Of a stretch of 64,000 nt of DNA, positions 3,697 through 8,999 are shown piece after piece. The DNA is taken from contig WRLR01000005.1 in assembly GCA_009777515.1 (NCBI GenBank), positions 1 through 64,000 of the forward strand, in the 5' to 3' direction. The first letter of the stretch is position 1; each line of letters starts with the position of its first letter. A program made the position numbers and the translations under genes. This stretch comes from Oscillospiraceae bacterium (GTDB lineage: Bacteria; Bacillota; Clostridia; WRLR01). The notes under the pieces are model-generated. The model was not told where the DNA came from. It searched no databases and saw only the letters and a list, made by a program, of their open reading frames with translations.

Positions 3697-5946
3697 TTAC
3701 AATGCGGCTACTATGCCGCTTTGGGCGTAGCTGTCCAAATATGCTGTCCACCATGAAATCGCAGTATTCAACGAATTTTGAGACCAATAGGATATTGTGT
3801 AACTGTTTGGCAAGACCTTGTATTGCCGTGTGCCTACGATGATGATGTCGTCTTTGGATACCGATAATTGGCCGCTCTTTGTGTAAAAGTCCGCAATATT
3901 ATATGTCGCCCCTCCCGGCGCAGATGTAGGCGCGGGGGTTGGCGCGGGCGTCGCGGTGGGCACCGGGGTTGGTGCGGGTGTCGCGGTGGGCGCGGGCGTC
4001 GGTGATGGAGTAGGCGCGGGCGTAAAGGTTGGCGTCGGTACGGGCACATTGCCGGAAATTACCTCTGCCACGCCGCCGGAAACATAGCTGTCCATATAGG
4101 CCGTCCACCACGTTATGGCTGTATTAATAGAGTTCTGTGGCCAATATGCAATCGTGTAGGTGCTCGATAATATCCTATATTGCCGTTCTCCAACGACTAT
4201 AATGTCCCCGCGCTTTACAGACAACTGGCCGCTCTGTGAGTAGAAGCTGACAATGTTATATGTCGCCGCACCCGGTGCAGATGTGGGCGCAGGCGTTGGC
4301 GCTATAGTGGGCGCGGGCGTGGGCGCCGGTGTCGGAGCGGGAGTGGGCGTCGGCGCAATTGTTGGCGCTGGCGTCGGAGCAGGAGTGGGTGTTGGCGCCG
4401 CTGTGGGCGCTGGCGTTGGCGTTGGCGTCGGCGCGAGCGTCGGCACAGGAGTAGGCGCGGGCGTCGGCGTCGGTGTCGTTATCGGCGCCGACATACCGGA
4501 ATACCCCATCCCCACGCACTGTGGGTTCGTCGGCATATAGTTGGCGTCGAGGGCTGGATTTACTTCAAGCGAACCGCTGTCGCCGTTGATATGGGCCTGC
4601 CACGCGGGGAGCCGCGCGTTTGTCAGCGTCCTGCCTGGCCTGCTGTCTGAAAAAGTGGCGTTTTTGCTTGCGATATAGTAACAGTTATTATTCATCACAG
4701 GATTACCGTCGAGAGCGGACAAACCGCCAAGCTCATTGGCGTAACGGATCTCTATCATTGGGCGGACGATAGTGTTTGGCAGGCTCACGATGTTGTGGTG
4801 GATATTCGGATTGATATTGGCGGGGCGGCCGGCATAACTTTCCCAATCCTGCATTGTGATGCCAAAGTAAATGGCGCTGTGGTACCGCCCGCCATTGGTC
4901 ACATTGACCATGGTGTTGTTGTAGACCTGGGCGTCTTTTGAACCATACAAGCCGATGCCTTCCCAACCCGTGCCAATGATCAGGTTGTTTCGCACGACGC
5001 CCCGGATATTTTCAAAATACTGCGGGTTTACTGTACGGTCAAAAAACTCCGGGCTCGTATCAAAGCCAACCATGATCCCGGCGCCGTTGGCGCGCTCGAT
5101 TCGGTTGTTTTCAATCAGCGCGTCGGTGGCGCCGCCCTTGGCGTAAATCGCGTTTGAGCATATATCATGGATATAATTATTATGAACATGCATATTGTCG
5201 CCATTGACATTGTCGATGCCTTCGGCGTTGTCCTCGCCATTCTGCGGCCTGCCGGCAAACGCGCGCCCGGAATTGTATATTTCGTTGTAGCGTATGGTGA
5301 CATTGTCGCAGTTGGGCTTTATCTTTATCACGTCGTATCGTGAATCATGCAGTATGCAGTCTTCGATAGTTATGTTGGACGCCCCGGAGCGATCGGGTTG
5401 CCCCCAGTCCCATTTGGTTTCCAGCGACACGGCGTACCAGCCGCCCATGACTTCGACGCCCTGTAGTTTACCGCCCGACGAGTCGACGTCAAAATAAACC
5501 GCTGAGTCTTCATTGTGACCTGCATTATATGTGGTCAGGTCGATAATCGCCCATTCGCCTTGTCGGGACTTTATCGTGATGTTGGCGGTTCGGATGCGGA
5601 CATTGATCCCCTCGCGGTAAGTGCCGCCGCGCAAGATTATCGTGGCGCCGGGCTGCGCCGCAGCCAAAGCTGTATTGATGCTCCTGTATGGGGCGTTGAT
5701 GGATCCATTAGCCGTCGAGTCGTTGCCGGTAGTGGATACATAGATCCCATTGGCGGGGTCGGCGCCACCAGAGCTTATGCGCGGCCCGACGCCCGGCGAC
5801 GGAGGCGCGCTGGCAAATGTGGCAGGCGGCATAGTCGCCGCGACGACCGTGACGACCATTATGAGAATGAACGCTAGTATTTTTAATGATTTTTGGTAGA
5901 TTGATTTCATATAGATCACCTCTTCTGGTTTTTTGCGGCTAATCAA
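3697..5946 (-). CDS. secreted right-handed parallel beta-helix protein with Pro/Thr linkers and two C-terminal copies of an unrecognised WW..YLDSY module
   Basis: Signal peptide; [45 protein letters not shown] plus repeated N-x-I beta-helix rungs; (APTP)n linkers; two copies of GQLSV..DDIIIVG.RQY.....WW.AYLDSY. Confidence 0.9.
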
Positions 5947-5971: not shown

Positions 5972-6018
5972 AGGTCGAATTCGATTAGACCTAATATAAG
6001 TCTAATTGAGTTCGACCT
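5972..6018. promoter_or_regulatory. large imperfect inverted repeat upstream of the beta-helix gene; candidate BlaI-family operator
   Basis: Arms aggtcgaattcgattagac (5972-5990) and gtctaattgagttcgacct (6000-6018), 17/19 complementary, 9-nt spacer. Confidence 0.6.
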
Positions 6019-6062
6019 AATTGTCAATAGTAAATATAAAAATTTTTAATTAATAATCCTCT

Positions 6063-7604
6063 TTAATCCATTGCTTCCAATTTGCCGCTTTCCACCCAAC
6101 TGTCGAGATAGTCGATCCACCATAGAACAACCTGTTCATGGGAAGGCTGGGTGTAGAAGGAGAGGGCGAGCGAATCCACAATGACTTCATATCGCCGGTC
6201 GCCCGCAATGAGAGTATCGCCGCCGTTTACCGTCAGCGTTCTTTCGGAGCCATCCTCGTCAAGCGCTAGGCCGAGAGCGGAAAAATCGCCGTCTTCATTA
6301 TTATAATAATCGGCAATGGCATGTGCCGTTCCCTGACCATATCCGCCGACGGACCCTATCGAACCGCCACCGGAACTATCGCCGGCGCCGTCGATACTTT
6401 CACCACTATCACTATTTCCGCTATCGCCATCGACGTTTTCTCCTCCGATGCTTTCGCCGCCGCTTTCAACGCTTTCACCGCCGTCGCTGCCACCGTTGTC
6501 GCTTTCGCCGTCGCTTTCGTCGCCCCTTGAATTGCCGCCAGAACCCAGTGCGGCGGCGGCGCTTGATTCCAACAACGCCGCATTGCTAACCCTGCTCAAT
6601 ACAAGCCCAAAACTTATAATTGTGACGAGCACAATAGCCAATGCTACCGCAACCCGCGAGGATTTCTTGAAATTCATTACATTTTTTATGCGCTTCTTTA
6701 TGCCGTCGTCGCCAAATGCGAGCGGGAGACCGCCAATAACAGGCTGGCCAACCGCCAAAGACAGCAAAGACATCGAGTAGTCCTTTTTTATCTCCCCGCC
6801 CAACTCTTTCAATACGCGTTCGTCGCAGGACATTTCCATATCCACGCTCATCAGCAGGAACGCCGCCCAAGCGAATGGGTTGAACCAGTGAAAGCAAAGA
6901 ATGAAATATGCCAAAAACTTTATAATATGATCGAACCGCCGAATATGCGTCTGTTCATGAAGTATTATATAGTCGCGCTCCTGCCCTGATAAATTCAGCG
7001 GGATATAGATTTTCGGGTTGAAAGCGCCCGACACGAACGGCGATCGGATACAATCGGTTTCGTAGAGATTGTGTTCATTGTCAATGCGGATAGCCGAACC
7101 CAGCTTATGTTTGAGGCGAGCATATGACGCCGCCCCTAAAACCAGTAGAAAAACCGTGCCGACGAACCACGCCCATGAACCAAATACCGTCCAGAACTGC
7201 ACAAAATTTACGTTGGCGACGCTGGCGGCGTTTGTGGCATTTGTAGCGTTTGCAGCACTGGTAGCGATATTAGCGATATCGGCCTGCGGTGGTATCAGCA
7301 CATTGCCGAAGGCGTTGTTTAAGAATGGTATCCCGCTGTCGATGCGGGGAGCGGGCTGCGTCGCAATGTCCGGTGGTATGATCTGCGCATTGAACGGGAT
7401 CAGGCTGAACACGCTTTCGATTGATAAGGGGAAAGCCAGCCTGAACCACGCCACAGCCCATAGGCAATAGGATATAATTTTAGGGGCTTTTTTAATCGAA
7501 AGGCGGACGAGGCAGATTGCCGCGACGACAAAAGCGCCGGTAATGCTCATATTCAAAACTGTAAGGAACAGTTTATCCATTGCCGCCGCCCCTCTCATGT
7601 TCAT
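6063..7604 (-). CDS. M56-family (BlaR1/MecR1-like) transmembrane metallopeptidase receptor with non-penicillin-binding C-terminal region
   Basis: HEQTHIRRFDH (HExxH), CDERVLKELG, four-TM organisation; overlaps a BlaI-like gene; Ser/Gly/Asp-rich linker then a C-terminal WWIDYLDSWVESG module. Confidence 0.9.
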   Translation of the reverse strand: MNMRGAAAMDKLFLTVLNMSITGAFVVAAICLVRLSIKKAPKIISYCLWAVAWFRLAFPLSIESVFSLIPFNAQIIPPDIATQPAPRIDSGIPFLNNAFGNVLIPPQADIANIATSAANATNATNAASVANVNFVQFWTVFGSWAWFVGTVFLLVLGAASYARLKHKLGSAIRIDNEHNLYETDCIRSPFVSGAFNPKIYIPLNLSGQERDYIILHEQTHIRRFDHIIKFLAYFILCFHWFNPFAWAAFLLMSVDMEMSCDERVLKELGGEIKKDYSMSLLSLAVGQPVIGGLPLAFGDDGIKKRIKNVMNFKKSSRVAVALAIVLVTIISFGLVLSRVSNAALLESSAAAALGSGGNSRGDESDGESDNGGSDGGESVESGGESIGGENVDGDSGNSDSGESIDGAGDSSGGGSIGSVGGYGQGTAHAIADYYNNEDGDFSALGLALDEDGSERTLTVNGGDTLIAGDRRYEVIVDSLALSFYTQPSHEQVVLWWIDYLDSWVESGKLEAMD

Positions 7605-7974
7605 CTATCAGCCGTTTTATCTCCTCCACTTGCTCCGGGAGCAATTTTCGGTTGCTGGTATATGAAGCGATAAACATTGGCAGAGAACCGCCGAAAGCGT
7701 CGTCCACATATTGGTGGCTCTGCCCCGCGATGATCTCATCACGCGAATAGAGCATGGTCACGCATGAATTTTCATTTTTGGCAAGCCCTTTGCCGATCAG
7801 GAACTTTAAGTTCGTAAACGTGGTGGACTTTTTCCAGCCGAACTCCCGTTCCGCAATCTTTATCATTTCCATAGATGCAATCGGCGCGTTGGCCCACAAA
7901 AGGTCCGCAAGCCTTGTCTCGGCATTAGTCAATTTAAATACAGGAGCCATATATGCCTTTCCATTGATCTCCAT
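7573..7974 (-). CDS. BlaI/MecI/CopY family transcriptional repressor (start may be 7950, MAPVFKLTNAE)
   Basis: KLTNAETRLADLLWANAPIASMEMIKIAEREFGWKKSTTFTNLKFLIGKGLA, winged-helix BlaI family; coupled to the M56 gene. Confidence 0.9.
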   Translation of the reverse strand: MEINGKAYMAPVFKLTNAETRLADLLWANAPIASMEMIKIAEREFGWKKSTTFTNLKFLIGKGLAKNENSCVTMLYSRDEIIAGQSHQYVDDAFGGSLPMFIASYTSNRKLLPEQVEEIKRLIDEHERGGGNG

Positions 7975-8010
7975 TGATCACTTGTGATCACCTGTGATCA
8001 CCTGATCATT
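7961..8010. repeat. 10-bp tandem repeat, palindromic core TGATCA, at the start of the blaI-like gene
   Basis: ccattgatct ccattgatca cttgtgatca cctgtgatca cctgatcatt. Confidence 0.7.
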
Positions 8011-8080
8011 TTATCATTTGACCACTACATATCCTTGATCACTATATATCGTAGTTACCATTTACAATGCGGCATAAAAC

Positions 8081-8099
8081 AAGTCGAAATTAATTAGAC
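8081..8099. promoter_or_regulatory. operator-like half site related to the 5972-6018 inverted repeat, between the blaI-like and ECF sigma genes
   Basis: aagtcgaaattaattagac; 16/19 identical to aggtcgaactcaattagac (reverse complement of the right arm of 5972-6018), both followed by ttat.tta. Confidence 0.45.
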
Positions 8100-8288
8100 T
8101 TATCTTAATTTAACAGACTCCAGCCTGCATGTCAACAGTTGACACGGATGCGGGCAACACCGCACAGCACAGTATTTTTTCCAACCCAGCATGACAGGCT
8201 CGTCGTGTTTTCTATGCCAACCATGCCTTTCTACGGAATAAATTTTTATTAAATATCCGACATTTTGCTTTTATAAATCGTATTATTA

Positions 8289-8999
8289 ATGAAAGGGGGC
8301 AGCGATTTGATGCCAACCGTGCCAGCGCGCGGCAAGGGAACGGCATGCGGCAATACCGAAAAAGCATATTCGAAGCATTTCGATGCAGAGGAAATATATA
8401 TGGAGCATTTCGATATGAAAGAAACATATGCGCGGCATTTTGATACAGATAAAAAATATGTGCGGCATTTTAATACAGATAAAACATATACGCAGCATTT
8501 CGATGCAGATGAAACATATGCAAAGTATTTCGATATAGAGGCAATTTATACGCGGCATTTCAATATGGTTTATCGCATTTGCTATTCATACCTTAAAAAT
8601 CCCGCTGATACAGAAGACGCAACTGCGGATGTATTCGTAAAGCTTATGCGAAGAGGCATCGTCTTCGGTGATGCCGAATATGAAAAGGCGTGGCTGATAC
8701 GTACGGCAATAAACACTAGCAAGGATTGCCTCAAGCATTGGTGGCGCAACCGCGCAAATATTAACGAGTATGAACACATACAAGGCGATCAGGGCGATAG
8801 CTCTTTGGAGATTGATGAAACTTTAAAAGCCGTCATGGAGCTGCCCGCGCGCTATAAGGATGTGATATACCTCCATTATTACGAGGGCTACACATCCGGC
8901 GATATAGCTAAAATTCTGAAAAAACCGTATTCCACTATCCGAAACCACATGCGTGAGGCTCGAAAACTATTGAGAGGAGTTTTGGAAAATGAGGGATAG
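8289..8999 (+). CDS. ECF RNA polymerase sigma factor with repeat-expanded N-terminus
   Basis: FNMVYRICYSYLKNPADTEDATADVFVKLM (region 2) and LPARYKDVIYLHYYEGYTSGDIAKILKKPYSTIRNHMREARKLLR (region 4). Confidence 0.92.
   Translation: MKGGSDLMPTVPARGKGTACGNTEKAYSKHFDAEEIYMEHFDMKETYARHFDTDKKYVRHFNTDKTYTQHFDADETYAKYFDIEAIYTRHFNMVYRICYSYLKNPADTEDATADVFVKLMRRGIVFGDAEYEKAWLIRTAINTSKDCLKHWWRNRANINEYEHIQGDQGDSSLEIDETLKAVMELPARYKDVIYLHYYEGYTSGDIAKILKKPYSTIRNHMREARKLLRGVLENEG
8358..8567 (+). repeat. seven 30-bp in-frame tandem repeats in the sigma factor N-terminus
   Basis: Units such as gataaaacatatacgcagcatttcgatgca encode (D/E)xxYxxHFDx; the last unit merges into sigma region 2.1. Confidence 0.95.

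Follow-up and report, generated by a model that had tools for sequence, protein, structure and literature searches.

The window (the whole stretch of DNA that was analysed, 64,000 nucleotides of contig WRLR01000005.1 of an Oscillospiraceae bacterium) contains three copies of a 17-bp dyad, two located in front of the gene for a secreted right-handed beta-helix protein and one in front of a blaI-blaR1-like operon. Judged by their sequence, they very probably belong to a class of repressor binding sites recently described for clostridial BlaI proteins. We consider it highly likely that they are the operators of the BlaI homologue encoded in the window, which would repress both the beta-helix gene and the blaI-blaR1 operon until the M56 sensor receives its signal. 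The three sites with their geometry and conservation, and the domain that the sensor shares with the beta-helix protein, are read directly from sequence, and from these we infer the binding by BlaI, the repression, the signal-induced cleavage and a common ligand. BlaI/M56 pairs are frequent in Clostridia, where they usually carry the annotation of regulators of beta-lactam resistance; the locus supplies a BlaI-type target gene other than a resistance gene.

On the minus strand, the cassette is made up of the blaI homologue, an overlapping BlaR1-like M56 sensor gene, the operators O2 and O1 and the beta-helix gene, in this order, with a gene for an ECF sigma factor divergent from blaI. The blaI homologue (positions 7573–7974, minus strand, 133 amino acids) contains a Penicillinase_R domain (PF03965, 1.7e-14, above the curated cut-off) and its profile matches the MecI and BlaI structures. 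Its homologues point to the internal ATG at 7950 as the true start. The sensor, a BlaR1-like M56 membrane metallopeptidase (6063–7604, minus strand), contains an HEQTH motif and matches PF05569 only (1.4e-49). In Pfam, no match to a penicillin-binding (transpeptidase-like) carboxy-terminal domain was obtained for it, and against the NCBIfam family blaR1_generic it reaches 88.8 of 400 bits, below the cut-off. The proposed target gene, coding for the secreted right-handed beta-helix protein (3697–5946, minus strand; PF13229, 1.7e-23), likely starts at the ATG at 5910, and the amino-terminus of its product reads as a signal-peptide-like hydrophobic stretch.

The initial annotation had described a 47-bp imperfect palindrome just upstream of the beta-helix gene and a 16/19 match to one of its arms at 8081, in the blaI/sigma intergenic region, and both are present as written. 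The palindrome (5972–6018) has 19-nt arms, complementary at 17 of 19 positions, and a 9-nt loop. The copy at 8081–8099 matches the minus-strand arm at 16 of 19 positions and continues into TTATCTTA, of which TTATATTA is the counterpart at the first site. Together, the two regions form the longest well-matched inverted pair of the region (25 nt, 88% identical). Each arm of the palindrome is a 17-bp near-palindrome in its own right, symmetric at 12 of 17 positions, and the general form of the operator is the 17-bp dyad GTC(G/T)A-N7-T(A/C)GAC. There are thus three complete operators, rather than one palindrome and half of another, and the match at 8081 contains a full 17-bp operator. O1 (GTCGAATTCGATTAGAC, 5974–5990, 22.2 bits) is the downstream, transcript-start member of the pair 5' of the beta-helix gene, while O2 (GTCTAATTGAGTTCGAC, 6000–6016, 21.8 bits) lies between the -35 and -10 elements and overlaps the latter. 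The start-to-start distance of O1 and O2 is 26, a spacing that fits the clostridial class (about 24–33 bp). O3 (GTCGAAATTAATTAGAC, 8083–8099, 20.0 bits), located in the blaI/sigma intergenic region at the predicted blaI transcription start, is single, without a paired dyad.

The motif is rare. A 21-nt pattern built from both sites, GTCGAANTNAATTAGACTTAT, has three matches in the window when up to three mismatches are allowed, against an expected 0.01, and with the same tolerance it finds these three sites only in the 4.54-Mb genome. Genome-wide, GTCKAATTNNATTMGAC with at most one mismatch is also confined to O1, O2 and O3. For this genome, the genome-wide statements come from pattern searches, not from the weight matrix described below; a gapped pattern spanning two operators, in an overly strict form, gave zero matches. 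A motif frequent at random across the genome would have counted against the initial annotation, and the scan came out in its favour. Two more single operator-like matches, a point against the reading, were noted in this genome, at G000:C18:2491 (L175, 1501–1519) and at C98:8152 (L177, 1501–1519), one just upstream of a short-chain dehydrogenase-like gene and the other where a ribosomal L7/L12-like gene ends.

The beta-helix promoter, which reads CTATTGACAATTAGGTCGAACTCAATTAGACTTATATTAGGTCTAATCGAATTCGACC on the minus strand, keeps the full TTGACA-N5-operator module intact. Its -35 element TTGACA (6022–6027, minus strand) ends exactly 5 nt 5' of O2 and its -10 element TAGACT (5999–6004, minus strand) is mostly inside O2, with a spacing of 17 between them; O1 follows at offset 37 from TTGACA. 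The predicted blaI promoter is formed by TTGACA at 8130–8135 and, 17 nt from it, an extended -10 element, TAAATT, preceded by TG, at 8107–8112 (both on the minus strand). O3 is at offset 36 from this TTGACA, as compared to 37 for O1, so it takes the place of the second operator in the blaI promoter, at the predicted transcript start. The first operator of this promoter appears to have decayed. In the 5' leader of blaI (7965–8015), TGATCACCTG-like units are repeated in tandem, together with several TGATCA palindromes; this could be a further regulatory element.

The conservation of the dyad was analysed in the 330 bp upstream of each of 98 BlaI homologues, a dyad being GTC-N11-GAC with a symmetry of at least 10 out of 17. 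Such dyads are present upstream of 53 of the 98 homologues (1.3 in shuffled sequences) and dyad pairs upstream of 34 (0 in shuffled sequences). This form was picked after the first orthologues had been seen, and the enrichment is a confirmation on a wider set rather than a blind discovery. For 45 of the 98 homologues there is no such dyad within the 330 bp scanned, so the motif is not a constant feature of the BlaI family. A symmetric weight matrix was constructed from 87 operator sites 5' of other blaI genes, leaving out those of the window. Over the 64,000 positions of the window, its three top-ranking sites are O1, O2 and O3, in this order, with 20–22 bits; the fourth position has 9.4 bits, a gap of more than 10 bits. 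At other loci, the second operator starts 24–33 nt after the first. Of 54 promoters, 45 have TTGACA (at least 5 of 6 bases) exactly 5 nt 5' of the first operator, versus 16 of 1960 random positions. This fixed TTGACA-N5-operator layout makes the -10 element (TAGACT) part of the operator. The TTGACA-N17-TAGACT arrangement of the beta-helix promoter is also found in L073, L074 and L164, and the GTCG half-site is common to the nearest orthologue loci, L073, L074, L075 and G060:C120. In Clostridia, this operator/promoter module is stereotyped, and the locus makes the operator code of a large clade predictable. Near the blaI genes of some loci, extra operator pairs are located before genes for lipoproteins or small membrane proteins, one in L093 (3167–3216) and others in L084 and L088 (5427–5468); these mark candidate further targets of the repressor clade.

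A related genome, the metagenome-assembled genome of Oscillospiraceae bacterium isolate Th196P4bin59 (G060, locus L073), served as an independent test. Its BlaI is 80% identical to that of the window, and its blaI-blaR1 locus has no beta-helix neighbour; upstream is a large frame, which we take to be GH97 glycoside hydrolase-like. The sequence GTCKR-N6-TTAGACT has three matches in this genome. One is located 5' of blaI, with TTGACA-N17-TAGACT, and the other two, on a different contig (C120:6877–6919), are paired as exact inverted copies, behind CTATTGACA-N5. On the 3' side of this pair are a second BlaI-like frame and then the beta-helix orthologue (73% identity over 461 amino acids). The pair thus precedes the beta-helix orthologue on a separate contig: the operator stays with the beta-helix gene even away from blaI-blaR1. 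In both genomes, there are two operators at the beta-helix unit and one clear operator at the blaI-blaR1 unit. The second BlaI-like frame (L164, 6938–7357) has an abnormal carboxy-terminus, and a blaI copy may at one time have shared an operon with the beta-helix gene. Conservation of the dyad upstream of orthologues, proposed as a check in the initial annotation, is therefore found for both blaI and the beta-helix gene. Its central claim, that the BlaI homologue controls its own operon as well as the beta-helix gene, draws support from the rarity of the motif, its conservation at orthologues and its membership of the clostridial operator class, with binding as the predicted step.

The closest comparison is with BlaI_0696 of Clostridium thermocellum, for which DAP-seq and EMSA demonstrated binding to paired sites of inverted GTCTAT, 5 nt apart, and which autoregulates the blaI-blaR1 operon and controls a few genes of unknown function; two half-site pairs were regarded as required by the authors (PMC8457756). 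As in that regulon, the dyads of the window are 17 bp long and of the GTCTA-N7-TAGAC class, with two at the beta-helix promoter. Differences are the half-site, here GTCG/TTAGAC, the single clear operator of the blaI promoter, which given that requirement counts against the reading, and the target, which is a secreted beta-helix protein with a domain that is also present in the sensor. The window shares with the BlaI/BlaR1 and MecI/MecR1 systems of Staphylococcus aureus and Bacillus licheniformis a Penicillinase_R repressor gene adjoining an M56 sensor gene and operator dyads placed over promoters. Neither a recognised penicillin-sensor domain in the sensor nor a beta-lactamase as the target is found here, however. 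The classical operator of the BlaI/MecI family is TACA/TGTA (PMC7253601), and this core (TACAnnTGTA) is absent from the sequences of O1, O2 and O3. The CopY/CopR copper repressors, with the operator RNYKACANNYGTMRNY (PMC7253601), belong to the same repressor superfamily and also have two operators per promoter, but they are metal-responsive and not under protease control, unlike the system proposed for the window.

In the proposed circuit, each of the 17-bp dyads O1, O2 and O3 would accommodate one BlaI dimer. At the beta-helix promoter, two dimers would cover the -10 element (O2) and the transcript start (O1) and switch the promoter off, while at the blaI-blaR1 promoter a single dimer on O3, over the transcription start, would result in weaker autoregulation. 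The M56 sensor would pick up the signal via its extracellular carboxy-terminal domain, upon which BlaI would be inactivated, presumably by proteolysis in analogy to BlaR1/MecR1. Expression of the secreted beta-helix protein and of the regulatory operon would follow.

A rare domain common to the sensor and the predicted target connects, as judged from sequence comparison, the two genes in a second and independent way. This unnamed domain of about 60–69 amino acids is present, by sequence match, at the carboxy-terminus of the sensor (6066–6239) and twice in the beta-helix protein (4066–4263 for the first copy and 3700–3906 for the second, all on the minus strand). The last 56 or so residues of the sensor match both carboxy-terminal repeats of the beta-helix protein, with E-values of 1e-10 and 1e-9. 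Searching the genome with a 69-residue query returned three copies only, one in the sensor and two in the beta-helix protein. In G060, the query finds the sensor, the beta-helix gene (at the edge of contig C120) and the start of contig C98, the last probably being the remainder of the same beta-helix gene. Among 391 genomes of the class, there are, beyond these two genomes, two weaker matches, one clear and one doubtful. The clear one is a probable lipoprotein (G004:C186, L171 about 3957–4490, 47% to the version of the sensor), and no operator was found on the contig that carries it; the doubtful one is an S-layer-like protein (E = 1.9e-4). No match was obtained in 399 genomes of the phylum, no Pfam or NCBIfam family matched the domain, and its confident structural model (pLDDT 96) gave no match in the PDB, the best E-value being 1.6. 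With the carboxy-terminal domain of the sensor also present in the beta-helix protein, both may recognise the same surface or ligand. Tentatively, and with rather more doubt than conviction, a BlaI/M56 switch may have been rewired from antibiotic sensing to a secreted protein that acts on a surface or polysaccharide, sensor and effector carrying the same new ligand-binding domain. If so, the effector would be made only when its own binding partner is present outside the cell or, alternatively, would compete with the sensor and turn the response off. A domain found in both sensor and target also offers a direct handle on what orphan sensors perceive.

A second BlaI, 49% identical to that of the window, is encoded in the same genome (G000:C68, L048 5143–5566), and we think it unlikely that O1, O2 and O3 are its operators, or those of both paralogues with cross-talk between the circuits. 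The two proteins have an identical recognition-helix motif, WKKSTT, and the C68 blaI gene has its own, similar operator pair (GTCTATATGCGTTAGAC and GTCTAACGCATTTAGAT) behind TTGACA, so it is the GTCG half-site, together with linkage, that assigns the sites to the BlaI of the window. The GTCG half-site of O1, O2 and O3 is found at orthologues of the BlaI of the window and is missing from the C68 operators, although, as GTCG-type half-sites also occur in 30 of 92 operators of other loci, this argument is suggestive only. As for linkage, the three sites adjoin the blaI gene of the window, not that of C68.

The 47-bp inverted repeat, which follows the blaR1 stop and precedes the beta-helix start, might also be thought to act mainly at the RNA level, as a hairpin for termination or processing at the end of the blaI-blaR1 transcript. 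Its predicted RNA fold is strong, with an energy of -23.1 kcal/mol (z = -6.0), and mirror symmetry between the members of a pair is somewhat more frequent at other loci than expected, with a centre identity of 55% versus 36%. At most other loci, however, the members of a pair are each palindromic but do not mirror one another over their full length, the same pair is located 5' of blaI and beta-helix genes with the -35 element at a fixed distance, and O3 has no partner arm. The terminator reading is disfavoured, and the hairpin explanation in general very improbable: the repeat has no proper T-tract, does not appear in the list from the terminator scan and is conserved as operators.

Scarcely credible is a promoter element for the neighbouring ECF sigma factor, common to the sigma and beta-helix genes, which we reject: GTCGAA...TTAGACTTAT does point to the beta-helix gene at 5996–6016 (minus strand) and to the sigma gene at 8083–8103 (plus strand), but the motif is symmetric, is at O3 in register with the minus-strand promoter, has a -35 element of the housekeeping type (TTGACA) at a fixed distance and is also found 5' of the blaI genes of the four nearest loci (L073–L076), where no match to relatives of the sigma protein was found. 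The initial annotation had further suggested that the divergent sigma gene might be controlled from O3. This is not supported, since the minus-strand promoter with which O3 is in register faces blaI, and O3 overlaps no plus-strand promoter, there being no plus-strand -35 element at the right distance. In the ECF sigma gene itself, about six in-frame tandem repeats of 30 bp are present at 8352–8565; they encode 10-residue units like YxRHFDxDxx which, at the amino-terminus of the protein, duplicate the beginning of sigma region 2.
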